Shown here: one piece after another, positions 17,128 through 36,330 of the stretch | Position numbering within the stretch: position 1 is the first letter of the stretch | Layout of the letters: each line of letters opens with the position of its first letter | Origin: Phycisphaerae bacterium | GTDB lineage: Bacteria > Planctomycetota > Phycisphaerae > Sedimentisphaerales > Anaerohalosphaeraceae | DNA length: 36,736 bases | Reading direction: 5' to 3' | Assembly: GCA_016782835.1 (NCBI GenBank) | Contig: JADHXS010000007.1 | Coordinates: forward strand, 1 to 36,736 | The notes under the pieces: generated by a model | What the model saw: the letters and a program-made list of their open reading frames with translations, nothing else | What the model was told of the DNA's origin: nothing | The model's database searches: none | Program-made: the position numbers and the translations under genes

Positions 17128-17149
17128 ATAAAACAGTTCCCGTAATTAC

Positions 17150-17228
17150 GGCCCAAAAGGCCAAAATAATTTAGCCCAGCCCAACGGGCTGGGGAAACAA
17201 ACCACAATATACCTCGCCCTGAAAGGGC
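17150..17228 (-). repeat. Three-hairpin repeat, copy 1 (CTA-stem family)
   Basis: On + strand: GGCCcaaaaGGCC - TTTAG - CCCAGCCCaacGGGCTGGG - spacer - GCCCTGAAAGGGC. Same C / NTAG / B / A order as the other copies. Confidence 0.65.
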
Positions 17229-17427
17229 AATATATAAGCCATTACAATCATCAATACACTACCGAATTATACCAGAAATCGGCTTAATGTGGCAACCGCC
17301 TTCGCTTTTTTTACAAACTTATTACTTAGACACTCGAAAATTGTTCAAAAAAGCGTAAAATAATACCCATTGCTGATAGTAGTACCATCGCCAACGGTTC
17401 GAAGGTACATATAAAAGGAAAATTCGA

Positions 17428-17523
17428 TGACCGCGTTGCGGTCAAACAACAATAGCCCCCGGTGAGCAACACGAAACCGGGGGTGACGGATATTCTAACC
17501 GCCCTTGACCCTGAATGGGTCAA
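17428..17523 (-). repeat. Three-hairpin repeat, copy 2 (CTA-stem family)
   Basis: On + strand: TGACCGCgttGCGGTCA - AACAACAATAG - CCCCCGGT...ACCGGGGG - spacer - TTGACCCtgaatGGGTCAA. Confidence 0.8.
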
Positions 17524-17594
17524 ATAGGAAAACCAGCAATGCCGGGCCGAAGGGATTTATTTAAAAGAAGAGTTTTAGCGTTGAGAAAGGCGGA

Positions 17595-18386
17595 ATGACA
17601 ATGATTTATCAAATACTGATATCAATTGTTACGGGGGGAATAGGATTCTCTTTACTTTTTGTAAAAGAAAAATCAAAATCCCAAAAAGCTCTGAGCATAA
17701 CTTTAATATTGATCGGAACAATATCCGGTGTAATTGCCGCATTCAACATTTCCGAATCTGAAGAAATTGGCAGTTTGAAACCTACCAATAAAGTAATTGA
17801 TCCCGAATGGACTGATAAAAATGAAGTGAGAATTGTTCAGCAAGGTGAACCGGTTATAAAGCTCGGGGGTGCATGGGTCAAACCAATATACCCACTTGGG
17901 AGAAATGTAGCACTTGCATTGATTAATGAAATTGACGGTTTAACAATTTATGCCAAAGTAACAAGTTTAGATGGTAAAATTGTAGCTAAGATAATTAGGA
18001 ATAAATGGCAAACAAATCCTAATCACTATTTTCGAAAATTTTCTAATCAATCATCTCTCGAAATTATCGACGAGTATGATATTCCGATTCTTCAAATTGA
18101 ACTTGTCGATTACAATACGGTCAAGATAGGAGGAATTTTCCGATCAGAAAAATCGTTTGTTTCTGATTTTGATAATGATTTCCCGCAATACAGTAACACA
18201 GTTAATGTTTTCTTGACGGGGGAATTCGAAAATACAATTCAGATTGTTGGTGAGGGAGGAGCGTTTTTTAACACAAATAATATGGAACTACAGGACATTA
18301 TTTCAAAATCAAGGGAAATAATTAAACCATGGTTCGATTATAGCTCCCCCTCAAACCCCTCTAAAAGACTTCCAAAGCAAATATGA
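17595..18386 (+). CDS. AT-rich hypothetical membrane-anchored protein
   Basis: 264-codon ORF with two N-terminal hydrophobic segments; RBS-like GAAAGG upstream. No family recognised. Confidence 0.7.
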   Translation: MTMIYQILISIVTGGIGFSLLFVKEKSKSQKALSITLILIGTISGVIAAFNISESEEIGSLKPTNKVIDPEWTDKNEVRIVQQGEPVIKLGGAWVKPIYPLGRNVALALINEIDGLTIYAKVTSLDGKIVAKIIRNKWQTNPNHYFRKFSNQSSLEIIDEYDIPILQIELVDYNTVKIGGIFRSEKSFVSDFDNDFPQYSNTVNVFLTGEFENTIQIVGEGGAFFNTNNMELQDIISKSREIIKPWFDYSSPSNPSKRLPKQI

Positions 18387-18469
18387 CAAAAGACAGAACG
18401 GACGGGTGGTCGGGGTAATGCAGATTGACAATTTAAAAAGAGTTTCTTGTGGGTGGCGTGCTTTGATTT

Positions 18470-18511
18470 GCCTGAAAGGCATATTTAACTTAGCCCAGCC
18501 CAGCGCATGTG
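18470..18511 (-). repeat. Partial/degraded three-hairpin repeat, copy 3a
   Basis: GCCTGAAAGGC - ATATTTAACTTAG - CCCAGCCCAGCGC; resembles copy 1, central stem degraded. Confidence 0.5.
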
Positions 18512-18514
18512 TTT

Positions 18515-18600
18515 AGCCCGAAGGGTTTTGATACAGTAGCCGGGGGTGAAACCCCCGGAAAGGAATACACCCATCCATTCTTTATGAGCTCCGGAGGAGC
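18515..18600 (-). repeat. Three-hairpin repeat, copy 3b (CTA-stem family)
   Basis: On + strand: AGCCCgaaGGGTT - GATACAGTAG - CCGGGGGTgaaACCCCCGG - spacer - GCTCCggaGGAGC. Confidence 0.7.
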
Positions 18601-18721
18601 GAAAGAGAGCGGCGTGTTTTATGTCCCTTTGGGACTGTGTGATTGAAAATTGATACGAGGGAAACCCCCTCCCCCCTTCCGGGTACTGGCCCTTGGCAGG
18701 GGGAGAGCTTTTAAGATTCCA

Positions 18722-34259: not shown

Positions 34260-34526
34260 TCCCTCCGTATTACGGGTGAACATGCGTGTAAGGTGCGAAA
34301 AATCGCATTGTAGATATGGTTTTCCAGTACTAAGGCAATAGGCAGTAGGCAGTTATAAAAATTTGAAATTTTTGGGAATAGCAAGATAGTACATGCAGAA
34401 TTTGTGCTATGTGGCTTTTGAAAATCCAAATAGTCCTATTCTGCAGTTTTGAATTTTTAGTTCTTAGTTTTGAGTTGTGAAAGTCCACCGGGTGGTTGGG
34501 TTGATTAAACAGGTTCAGGGAAATTC

Positions 34527-34627
34527 AACCCCGATGGGGTTCGGGGGGGGTGTGCGATCCTATTCCACGGGTTCCGGCCTTCGGCCTGCACCCGCGGCTA
34601 TTCTTATTAAAATCCCTACGGGATTTT
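34527..34627 (+). repeat. Three-hairpin repeat, copy 4 (CTA-stem family)
   Basis: AACCCCgatGGGGTT - spacer - CCACGGGT..GGCCttcGGCC..ACCCGCGG - CTATTCTTATT - AAAATCCCtacGGGATTTT. Confidence 0.8.
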
Positions 34628-34745
34628 ATGATTTACGATTTTGAATGCAACGGATATAATATTGTGACATCTTAGAAGAAGGAATGAGGGAGATTTCCAT
34701 TTCAGACAGCATTTGAGGCTTTGGAAAAAGGAGATAGCATAAAAA

Positions 34746-35378
34746 ATGAGCAAAATTGAAAATAATATTCAAAAAGTACATGTTGTCAATTTTCCCGAAA
34801 AGGATAAATGGGACAAGTTGCAAATAATTGTGACAATTATATCTCTACTACTTGCAACTGTATCCACATGGTTATACATACACGAAATTAAAAAGTGTCC
34901 AGATTTATATGTCTCAGTTTTTTCACCTACGCCTACATTAGGCAAAGTAATTTTTGAATTTGGTGATAATGCTCTATCCAATCCATTAGAATTTGATGTT
35001 TCTTTACAAAACAAAGGTGATAAAAAGTCTGAATCACTTACAAAGTTCACTTTGATGTTTGACAGAAAAGTAGAAGTTTCATTAAAATCGCAGGGGCTTT
35101 GGGAAGAAGATAAAGAGTCACAGGATTTCAAAACATTTCATTATCTAAAAGAAGATTTAGGTATTAATTCAGATACCAGCAGACGTATCGGCAAATTTGA
35201 TTTATGCATCCCCAAGCAAGCAAAACCATTATTGTTTGCTATGTTTATAATCGAGGGTGATTTCAAAAGAAAAATGGGATTGATCTATTATGATTACTTG
35301 AATGAAAAATATAATGTTGTTCAATACACCGATCCTCATCGAGCAACTGAAGTATGGAACAAACATTTAAATCAATAA
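34746..35378 (+). CDS. AT-rich hypothetical protein with one N-terminal TM segment
   Basis: RBS-like AAAGGAG upstream; LQIIVTIISLLLATVSTWLYI followed by a soluble domain. No family recognised. Confidence 0.7.
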   Translation: MSKIENNIQKVHVVNFPEKDKWDKLQIIVTIISLLLATVSTWLYIHEIKKCPDLYVSVFSPTPTLGKVIFEFGDNALSNPLEFDVSLQNKGDKKSESLTKFTLMFDRKVEVSLKSQGLWEEDKESQDFKTFHYLKEDLGINSDTSRRIGKFDLCIPKQAKPLLFAMFIIEGDFKRKMGLIYYDYLNEKYNVVQYTDPHRATEVWNKHLNQ

Positions 35379-35429: not shown

Positions 35430-35541
35430 ATATCAAAAGCCTATATGGCTTTTGATATGAATAGCCACGGGTGGAGGCCCGAAGGGGCGGAACCCGTGGG
35501 AAAAGGGGCAACAGCAGTATTTGACCCTGTAAGGGGTCAAA
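35430..35541 (-). repeat. Three-hairpin repeat, copy 5 (CTA-stem family)
   Basis: On + strand: ATATCAAAAGCCtataTGGCTTTTGATAT - GAATAG - CCACGGGT...ACCCGTGG - spacer - TTTGACCctgtaagGGGTCAAA. Confidence 0.8.
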
Positions 35542-35554
35542 TAAAGGAGGCGTT

Positions 35555-36001
35555 ATGGCAACCTATACACAGGTTCTTTACCACCTTGTTTACGGGACGA
35601 AAAACCATCGAGGCACGCTGGACCTTGAGCAACATGATGAAGTGTGCCGCTATATTGTCGGAATTCTGAGAAACAAGAACTGTTTCGTTTATAAAGTCGG
35701 GGGATACATTGACCATTTGCATATATTAACGTCTTTACATTCTTCGCTGGCTCTGGCAAACGTCATCAAAGATATTAAACTGGCAACGTCTGACTGGATT
35801 AAAAAGGAAAAGAAACTTTCCATTTTTGACGGCTGGCAGGATGGTTACGGGGCGTTTACCTGCTCATGGAAGGATAAAGAACGAGTTATCAACTATATTG
35901 CCAATCAGCATGAGCATCACCGGCATAAAACGTTTCGTGAAGAATATATTGAAATGTTGAAAAGGAGCGGTGTTGAATTTGATGAGAAATATCTGTGTTG
36001 A
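35555..36001 (+). CDS. IS200/IS605-type Y1 (HUH) transposase, RAYT-like
   Basis: Y1_Tnp features: YHLVYGTKNH, HUH motif DHLHIL, GAFTCSWKDKERVINYIANQHEHHRHKTFREEY with probable catalytic Tyr. No tnpB nearby. Confidence 0.9.
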   Translation: MATYTQVLYHLVYGTKNHRGTLDLEQHDEVCRYIVGILRNKNCFVYKVGGYIDHLHILTSLHSSLALANVIKDIKLATSDWIKKEKKLSIFDGWQDGYGAFTCSWKDKERVINYIANQHEHHRHKTFREEYIEMLKRSGVEFDEKYLC

Positions 36002-36007
36002 TTATTC

Positions 36008-36100
36008 AACCCCTTTGGGGTTGGGGGTGTTTGTTGGATGTTTTCCCCGGGTTGCGCTGGCGCTTACCCGGGGCTATTGGTATTTAACCCCGTTGGGGTT
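36008..36100 (+). repeat. Three-hairpin repeat, copy 6 (CTA-stem family)
   Basis: AACCCCtttGGGGTT - spacer - CCCCGGGT...ACCCGGGG - CTATTGGTATTT - AACCCCgttGGGGTT. Confidence 0.9.
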
Positions 36101-36180
36101 GATGGGGATGTTGTGGGATGTTTTCCCCGGGTTGCGCTGGCGCTTACCCGGGGCTATTGTTATTTAAGCCCTTCGGGCTT
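36086..36180 (+). repeat. Three-hairpin repeat, copy 7, sharing a hairpin with copy 6
   Basis: A ~50-nt core (GGATGTTTTCCCCGGGTTGCGCTGGCGCTTACCCGGGGCTATTGNTATTTAA) recurs 80 nt after copy 6 with one mismatch; ends AAGCCCttcGGGCTT. Confidence 0.9.
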
Positions 36181-36330
36181 TAGGGGGTCTTTTACATATT
36201 CACCGGAACAACAAAAAGTGGTGATTTTATTCTTTTTTGTTTGGCGTTGACGGGGGGGAGGAAATTGGATATTTTAAATTGTAGATCGTATATTGGTGAA
36301 TGACCATTTTGAAAGGCAAGCAAGGCAGAT

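Follow-up and report, generated by a model that had tools for sequence, protein, structure and literature searches.

In the REP/RAYT systems of Escherichia coli (group 2) and Stenotrophomonas maltophilia (group 3 REPtrons), a Y1 HUH gene is flanked by inverted palindromes whose 5′ foot is a tetranucleotide that ends in TAG, and dispersed solo copies and inverted pairs of the palindromes are also present. The S. maltophilia REP has a perfect 8 bp stem and a 3 nt loop (PMC8266576). The TnpA-REP enzymes of E. coli, S. maltophilia and Marinomonas bind the folded GTAG strand; in Marinomonas an altered GTAG alters the CT or CA cut site, and bases three and four of the foot mattered most in S. maltophilia (PMC8266576). 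The GTAG-tagged REPs catalogued by Di Nocera et al. (2013, PMC3733652) have an unpaired tetranucleotide at one end of the stem, stems of 6–9 bp, complementary stem variants and GT pairs. That catalogue contains only GTAG and CGTC types with a single hairpin, and its text describes neither a unit of three hairpins nor a subclass 1.2 gene. The hairpins on which the enzymes of the IS200/IS605 family (IS608, ISDra2) act have a guide tetranucleotide at their 5′ foot.

TnpA-Y1 subclass 1.2 has been listed without REPs and generally without IS200-type ends, mainly in Cyanobacteria and Bacteroidetes (Quentin et al. 2018, PMC6006769). The automatic REP search in that study required GT[AG]G feet, a requirement by which ATAG and TTAG feet escape notice. 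The literature searched, which included few subscription journals and no preprints, contained no report of such units in subclass 1.2.

The locus described here is in a stretch of 36,736 nt, referred to as the window. It resembles the REP/RAYT systems in the Y1 HUH gene flanked by inverted palindromes, the foot tetranucleotide ending in TAG and the dispersed solo copies and inverted pairs, and the S. maltophilia REP in its 8 bp perfect stem and 3 nt loop. However, the Y---NP motif of class 2 is absent from the enzyme, the foot varies at its first base, with ATAG and not GTAG the commonest, each unit has two extra outer hairpins, and the stem core varies widely. The features listed above for GTAG-tagged REPs, from the unpaired tetranucleotide to the GT pairs, are also found here. 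The enzyme has the same fold as those of IS608 and ISDra2, but the ends are inverted, there are three hairpins per unit and many solo units, and no TnpB was seen in the window. Its length (148 aa), the DHxH, WQ and Y---Q--HH motifs, the low copy number and the low identity between copies within one genome are shared with subclass 1.2, whereas most of the members sampled here are flanked by units and they come from more phyla. The locus is best read as a REP/RAYT-like system whose enzyme is IS200-like.

The three-hairpin unit in the window and its genome

A scan of the window for TAG followed by an 8 bp stem recovered all seven copies listed in the original prediction, and in each of them the 8 bp terminal stem is directly 3′ of the foot (Table 1). 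The foot had been described as an invariant NTAG; the T, A and G are fixed in all seven copies but the first base varies, being A, G or T. The copy near 34527, for which one mismatch had been given, has a single G.T pair in hairpin B, and the other six stems are perfect. The diverged copy with CCCAGCCC at 17175 retained its full-unit score (covariance model E about 1e-7). Hairpin B and its foot are thus as first described, with the correction that two further hairpins, A and C, prove to be integral to the unit.

Table 1. Positions of the three-hairpin units and the transposase gene in the window
Feature	Position	Strand	Foot	Hairpin B	Stem B arms	E value
Three-hairpin unit, diverged subfamily	17146–17237	+	TTAG 17171–17174	17175–17193(+)	CCCAGCCC/GGGCTGGG	1.2e-7 (covariance model)
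Three-hairpin unit	17426–17529	+	ATAG 17452–17455	17456–17483(+)	CCCCCGGT/ACCGGGGG	4.4e-13 (covariance model)
Three-hairpin unit	18511–18609	+	GTAG 18536–18539	18540–18558(+), loop GAA	CCGGGGGT/ACCCCCGG	8.1e-12 (covariance model)
Three-hairpin unit	34519–34628	-	ATAG 34598–34601(-)	34565–34597(-)	CCGCGGGT/ACCCGTGG, one G.T pair	3.7e-16 (covariance model)
Three-hairpin unit, upstream flank of transposase	35434–35546	+	ATAG 35461–35464	35465–35499(+)	CCACGGGT/ACCCGTGG	9e-12 (covariance model)
Y1 (HUH) transposase gene, 148 aa	35555–36001	+				4.9e-20 (Pfam Y1_Tnp)
Three-hairpin unit, downstream flank of transposase, in inverse orientation to the upstream unit	36000–36103	-	ATAG 36074–36077	36045–36073(-)	CCCCGGGT/ACCCGGGG	8.1e-16 (covariance model)
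Second downstream unit, in tandem with 36000–36103	36078–36183	-	ATAG 36154–36157	36125–36153(-)	as in 36000–36103	2.2e-16 (covariance model)

Alignment of the copies from the same genome gave a unit of about 95–120 nt, in the order hairpin A (for example GCCCgaaGGGC), a spacer of about 6 nt (usually 8–10 nt when counted up to the TAG), NTAG, hairpin B, a spacer of about 23 nt (21–27 nt and C/A-rich in most copies), hairpin C and then GAATA or GACA. The edges of the unit are sharp, formed by hairpin A on one side and a point about 5 nt beyond hairpin C on the other, and conservation falls to about zero beyond these limits. Neighbouring units sometimes have one outer hairpin in common, as is the case for 36000–36103 and 36078–36183. 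A search of the 2.25 Mb genome with a covariance model (R1) trained on the units of this genome alone found 79 units, and inverted pairs of units with no gene were present at C94, C98 and C110. Being short, palindromic, extragenic and present in many copies, the units have the properties of REP elements.

All seven units in the window are extragenic, located between the main genes. TAG precedes six of the 30 perfect GC-rich 8 bp hairpins in the window and is the commonest trinucleotide in this position; the runner-up, TTC, precedes four, at a rate per site roughly 6-fold lower than that of TAG. An Rfam search of the window returned only a tRNA and no family for the units, and no defence genes were found in it using defence-gene profiles. 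Two accessory ORFs (17595–18386 and 34746–35378) are interspersed with the units, as insertions between genes that are otherwise ordinary, and neither had a match in Pfam, NCBIfam or PADLOC. Stems of the CCCAGGGC type with an AAC loop were seen in the unit at 17146–17237 and at C26:1715, C36:16735 and C74:22598 elsewhere in the genome. These units look orphaned, as their apparent cognate transposases (L078 and L084 type) are in related genomes and were not found here.

The Y1 transposase and its flanking units

The transposase gene is located between one upstream unit and two downstream units in inverse orientation (Table 1), and the end of hairpin C in the upstream unit immediately precedes the likely ribosome-binding site. 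RAYT genes have this same arrangement, between inverted REPs that carry a foot tetranucleotide. The predicted protein contains the motifs DHLH, WQ and YIANQHEHH (Y---Q--HH) and, judged by these signature motifs and its length, the enzyme matches TnpA-Y1 subclass 1.2. A classical RAYT (class 2) is ruled out by the absence of the Y---NP motif, YIANQ being found instead. The score against the NCBIfam IS200/IS605 profile was 52.6, just under the cut-off of 55. When an AlphaFold model of the transposase (pLDDT 90) was compared with the PDB using Foldseek, ISDra2 (E 1.8e-8), IS608 (E 2e-7) and the E. coli RAYT (E 1.5e-5) were matched. A profile search of the PDB also recovered the IS608/ISDra2 enzymes, and a search of the PDB with the single sequence gave no match. 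ISDra2, IS608 and the E. coli RAYT, matched by fold and sequence, act on single-stranded hairpins.

In the genome that contains the window, all five subclass 1.2 genes adjoin units, and none of the four other Y1 genes does (distance up to 500 nt; Fisher p 0.008). Among 41 related genomes, at least five units were present in all 17 with the transposase, a set that omits one weak 26% transposase match, and in five of the 24 without it (Fisher p 3e-7). In these five, incompleteness of the genome (true of some of them) or loss of the gene may account for its absence. The remaining 19 of the 24 had at most one unit.

A further 79 relatives of the transposase were fetched from public genomes of at least five phyla (Bacteroidota, Verrucomicrobiota, Planctomycetota, Chlorobiota/Ignavibacteria, Sumerlaeota and others), and the model from the original genome was applied within 150 nt of each gene. 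An upstream unit on the + strand was found at 57 of the 79 and on the wrong strand at two, while an inverted downstream unit, on the - strand, was found at 55 and on the wrong strand at 12. Both flanking units were present at 47, and the distance between gene and unit was most often 4–30 nt. The description of subclass 1.2 as having no associated REPs is contradicted by the adjacent unit on the expected strand at 65 of the 79 loci; at the other 14 none was detectable. When 25 of the relatives' genomes were searched whole, units were found in 24, with up to 127 per genome. In an examination of the relatives' loci that made no use of the model, perfect hairpins in both of the expected orientations were preceded by TAG more often than by any other trinucleotide (34/172 and 55/221), and TAG preceded only 11 and eight hairpins in the two unexpected orientations. 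Chance palindromes are ruled out by the excess of TAG in the window and this orientation bias, and are also countered by the 19 transposase-less relatives with at most one unit.

The units could instead be primarily elements that act at the RNA level or in regulation (terminators, mRNA stabilisers or attenuators), with the adjacency to the transposase secondary. They are intergenic and fold strongly (z about -4 to -9 for the NTAG strand), and some of the A and C hairpins in the window resemble terminators, with seven such found and 1.4 expected. However, hairpin B is without a T-tract, no Rfam family was matched, the copy number of the units tracks the transposase, and the recurrence of the inverted arrangement at a single gene family in several phyla is not accounted for by regulation of diverse host genes; we regard this explanation as unlikely. 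It is very unlikely that the units are just the left end and the right end of an ordinary IS200/IS605 IS with TnpA, together with solo remnants. By sequence and fold the enzyme does belong to class 1 (IS200-like), but the NCBIfam score is below the cut-off and the ends of IS200/IS605 IS are on the same strand, not inverted like the flanks found here. The five genes in the genome of the window are low-copy and 40–72% identical, in place of the near-identical copies of IS200/IS605, and are far exceeded by solo units (79 units, five genes). Inverted, not direct, ends and this level of identity speak against a normal IS200 element.

We consider it quite probable that the NTAG hairpins are the core of a REP-like non-coding mobile unit and that these units serve as DNA substrates for the subclass 1.2 Y1 transposase. 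Enzymes that have been described without a DNA partner would thereby gain a concrete candidate substrate, and REP/RAYT-like behaviour would be extended to several phyla and to enzymes of class 1. There would also be an explanation for the abundant hairpin repeats of this class in many draft genomes.

Stem variation, foot sequence and recognition

The prediction that the stem sequence varies while pairing is kept was borne out. In 28 units from the genome of the window, 98.1% of the pair cells were standard, double changes occurred in 62 cells compared with 18.7 after shuffling, and pairing fell to 31–62% when the partner strand was slid. Related copies inflate these figures, so a second test was performed using unconditioned pairs in other genomes; this superseded an earlier covariation test that was partly circular, its matches having been chosen by pairing. 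Only TAGCC, GGY, RCC and GG were fixed in the search pattern, and the regions near subclass 1.2 genes were searched. All three unconditioned inner pairs were complementary in 71 of 75 matches, from loci and copies that are partly interdependent, with GC, CG, AT and TA all used, and only four matches were in the wrong orientation. The non-standard inner pairs in this analysis were mainly G.T (14) with few C.A (2) on the NTAG strand, an excess which suggests, with a weight limited by shared ancestry, that the NTAG strand is the one that folds. With the fixed pattern TAGCC....GT and AC....GG, 49 matches were found across the genome of the window and 44 in a backward control, a count that alone is not above the control, and the four unconditioned inner pairs were all complementary in 41 of the 49.

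Among the 53 labelled genes on a transposase tree, which have 21 triplets between them, the inner triplet of the stem changed at least 30 times with pairing preserved. When the labels were shuffled, 42 changes were needed on average (minimum 38), indicating that the stem type also follows the enzyme. The triplets of the upstream and downstream stems were identical at 24 of 35 loci, compared with 3.3 expected. The analogy to REP/RAYT drawn in the original prediction holds strongly, in that the stems covary, the TAG is kept across phyla and inverted units surround a Y1 HUH gene.

The expected conservation of NTAG genome-wide was also seen: the foot was ATAG, GTAG or TTAG in 64 of the 66 copies examined from the genome of the window, these being the copies where hairpin B could be placed at low penalty, with TAG given a small placement bonus. 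Near subclass 1.2 genes, 71 of 91 paired CC...GGY hairpins had NTAG feet, and among feet ATAG and TTAG dominate and GTAG, one form of the GT[AG]G foot of class 2 RAYTs, is in the minority. Some loci in Bacteroidota and Ignavibacteria have an ATAA or CCAG foot with the A-B-C layout intact, and in the Chryseobacterium populi group the A- and C-like hairpins are kept and hairpin B is absent. NTAG is therefore the majority foot but not a universal one. Four loci in Chryseobacterium (L157, L160, L161 and L162) include a gene of the same subclass with only small A- and C-like hairpins and CTGTTAAT-like tails, possibly a simpler or decayed form of the unit. Mutual information between the first base of the foot and other positions revealed only subfamily linkage and no candidate cleavage site.

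By analogy to IS608 and TnpA-REP, the enzyme would bind the NTAG strand as single-stranded DNA with hairpin B folded, the cleavage site would be selected with the TAG just 5′ of the stem as guide, and the variable first base of the foot would make a lesser contact than the fixed TAG. A tyrosine–DNA link would then form, and units would be moved by strand transfer, whether alone, in inverted pairs or along with the gene. In the stem, the three central pairs may serve as a changeable cognate label, with the CC...GG ends and the TAG as the fixed part. A wider proposal, which we make only tentatively, is that a class 1 IS200-like lineage in at least five phyla has independently gained a REP-type lifestyle, spreads three-hairpin units, and recognises TAG and the stem geometry, with a cognate code, co-evolving between enzyme and repeat, in the three central pairs of the stem. 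Natural stem variants with their cognate enzymes are available in cultured genera (Belliella, Algoriphagus and Chryseobacterium), which makes recognition of the guide and the stem directly testable.

Turnover of the units and hitch-hiking

Turnover of units is shown by the loci at priA and ackA and in Chryseobacterium/Kaistella. Upstream of priA, the window contains 1655 nt with three units and an ORF, the orthologous gene pair in one relative (G009) is 236 nt apart and free of units, and in a second relative (G001) two units form an inverted pair. Six relatives are without the transposase locus upstream of ackA, and at orthologous loci in Chryseobacterium/Kaistella the number of upstream units differs, from one to three. 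The filled and empty alleles that had been anticipated were thus found as differences in the presence or number of units but not as a base-exact empty junction, which was seen at none of these loci; at priA and ackA this is because the flanks are too diverged between species. Plasmid and phage collections contained only three distant relatives of the transposase, unusable for empty sites. In four Chryseobacterium/Kaistella examples (L099, L105, L113 and L120), the transposase is at one orthologous place, between apparent sensor-kinase and response-regulator genes, and this locus was read as vertical inheritance with turnover of units.

The class I units at C19:154, C22:32441, C38:6371, C98:11547 and C105:14853 (L024, L026, L029, L043 and L044) are bounded by exact or near copies of GCTCTGTAGAAAAG...CTTTTCTACAGAGC, which appears to be the terminal inverted repeat of another, unrelated IS of the DDE type; an NTAG unit seems to have been captured by a MITE and spread with it. 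Some copies of one subfamily are inside this MITE, hence not all of the spread is due to the Y1 enzyme. Wholly passive spread, via DDE-type MITEs or duplication and with the Y1 gene as another passenger, would account for these class I copies and for two units 318 bp apart at C80, but is highly improbable given that most units are without such repeats and have sharp edges even so, and that the stem type follows the neighbouring Y1 protein. The solo copies, inverted pairs and gene-bearing copies are compatible with propagation through strand transfer on single-stranded DNA, with a share of hitch-hiking.

The two units at C80:1–900 (L036) are identical in sequence and probably represent a tandem duplication that carried the unit. 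In a Bacteroidota genome (G048:C279:10218–10580), units form a tandem array with a period of 67–68 nt, in which the outer hairpins are shared (A-B-A-B-A).
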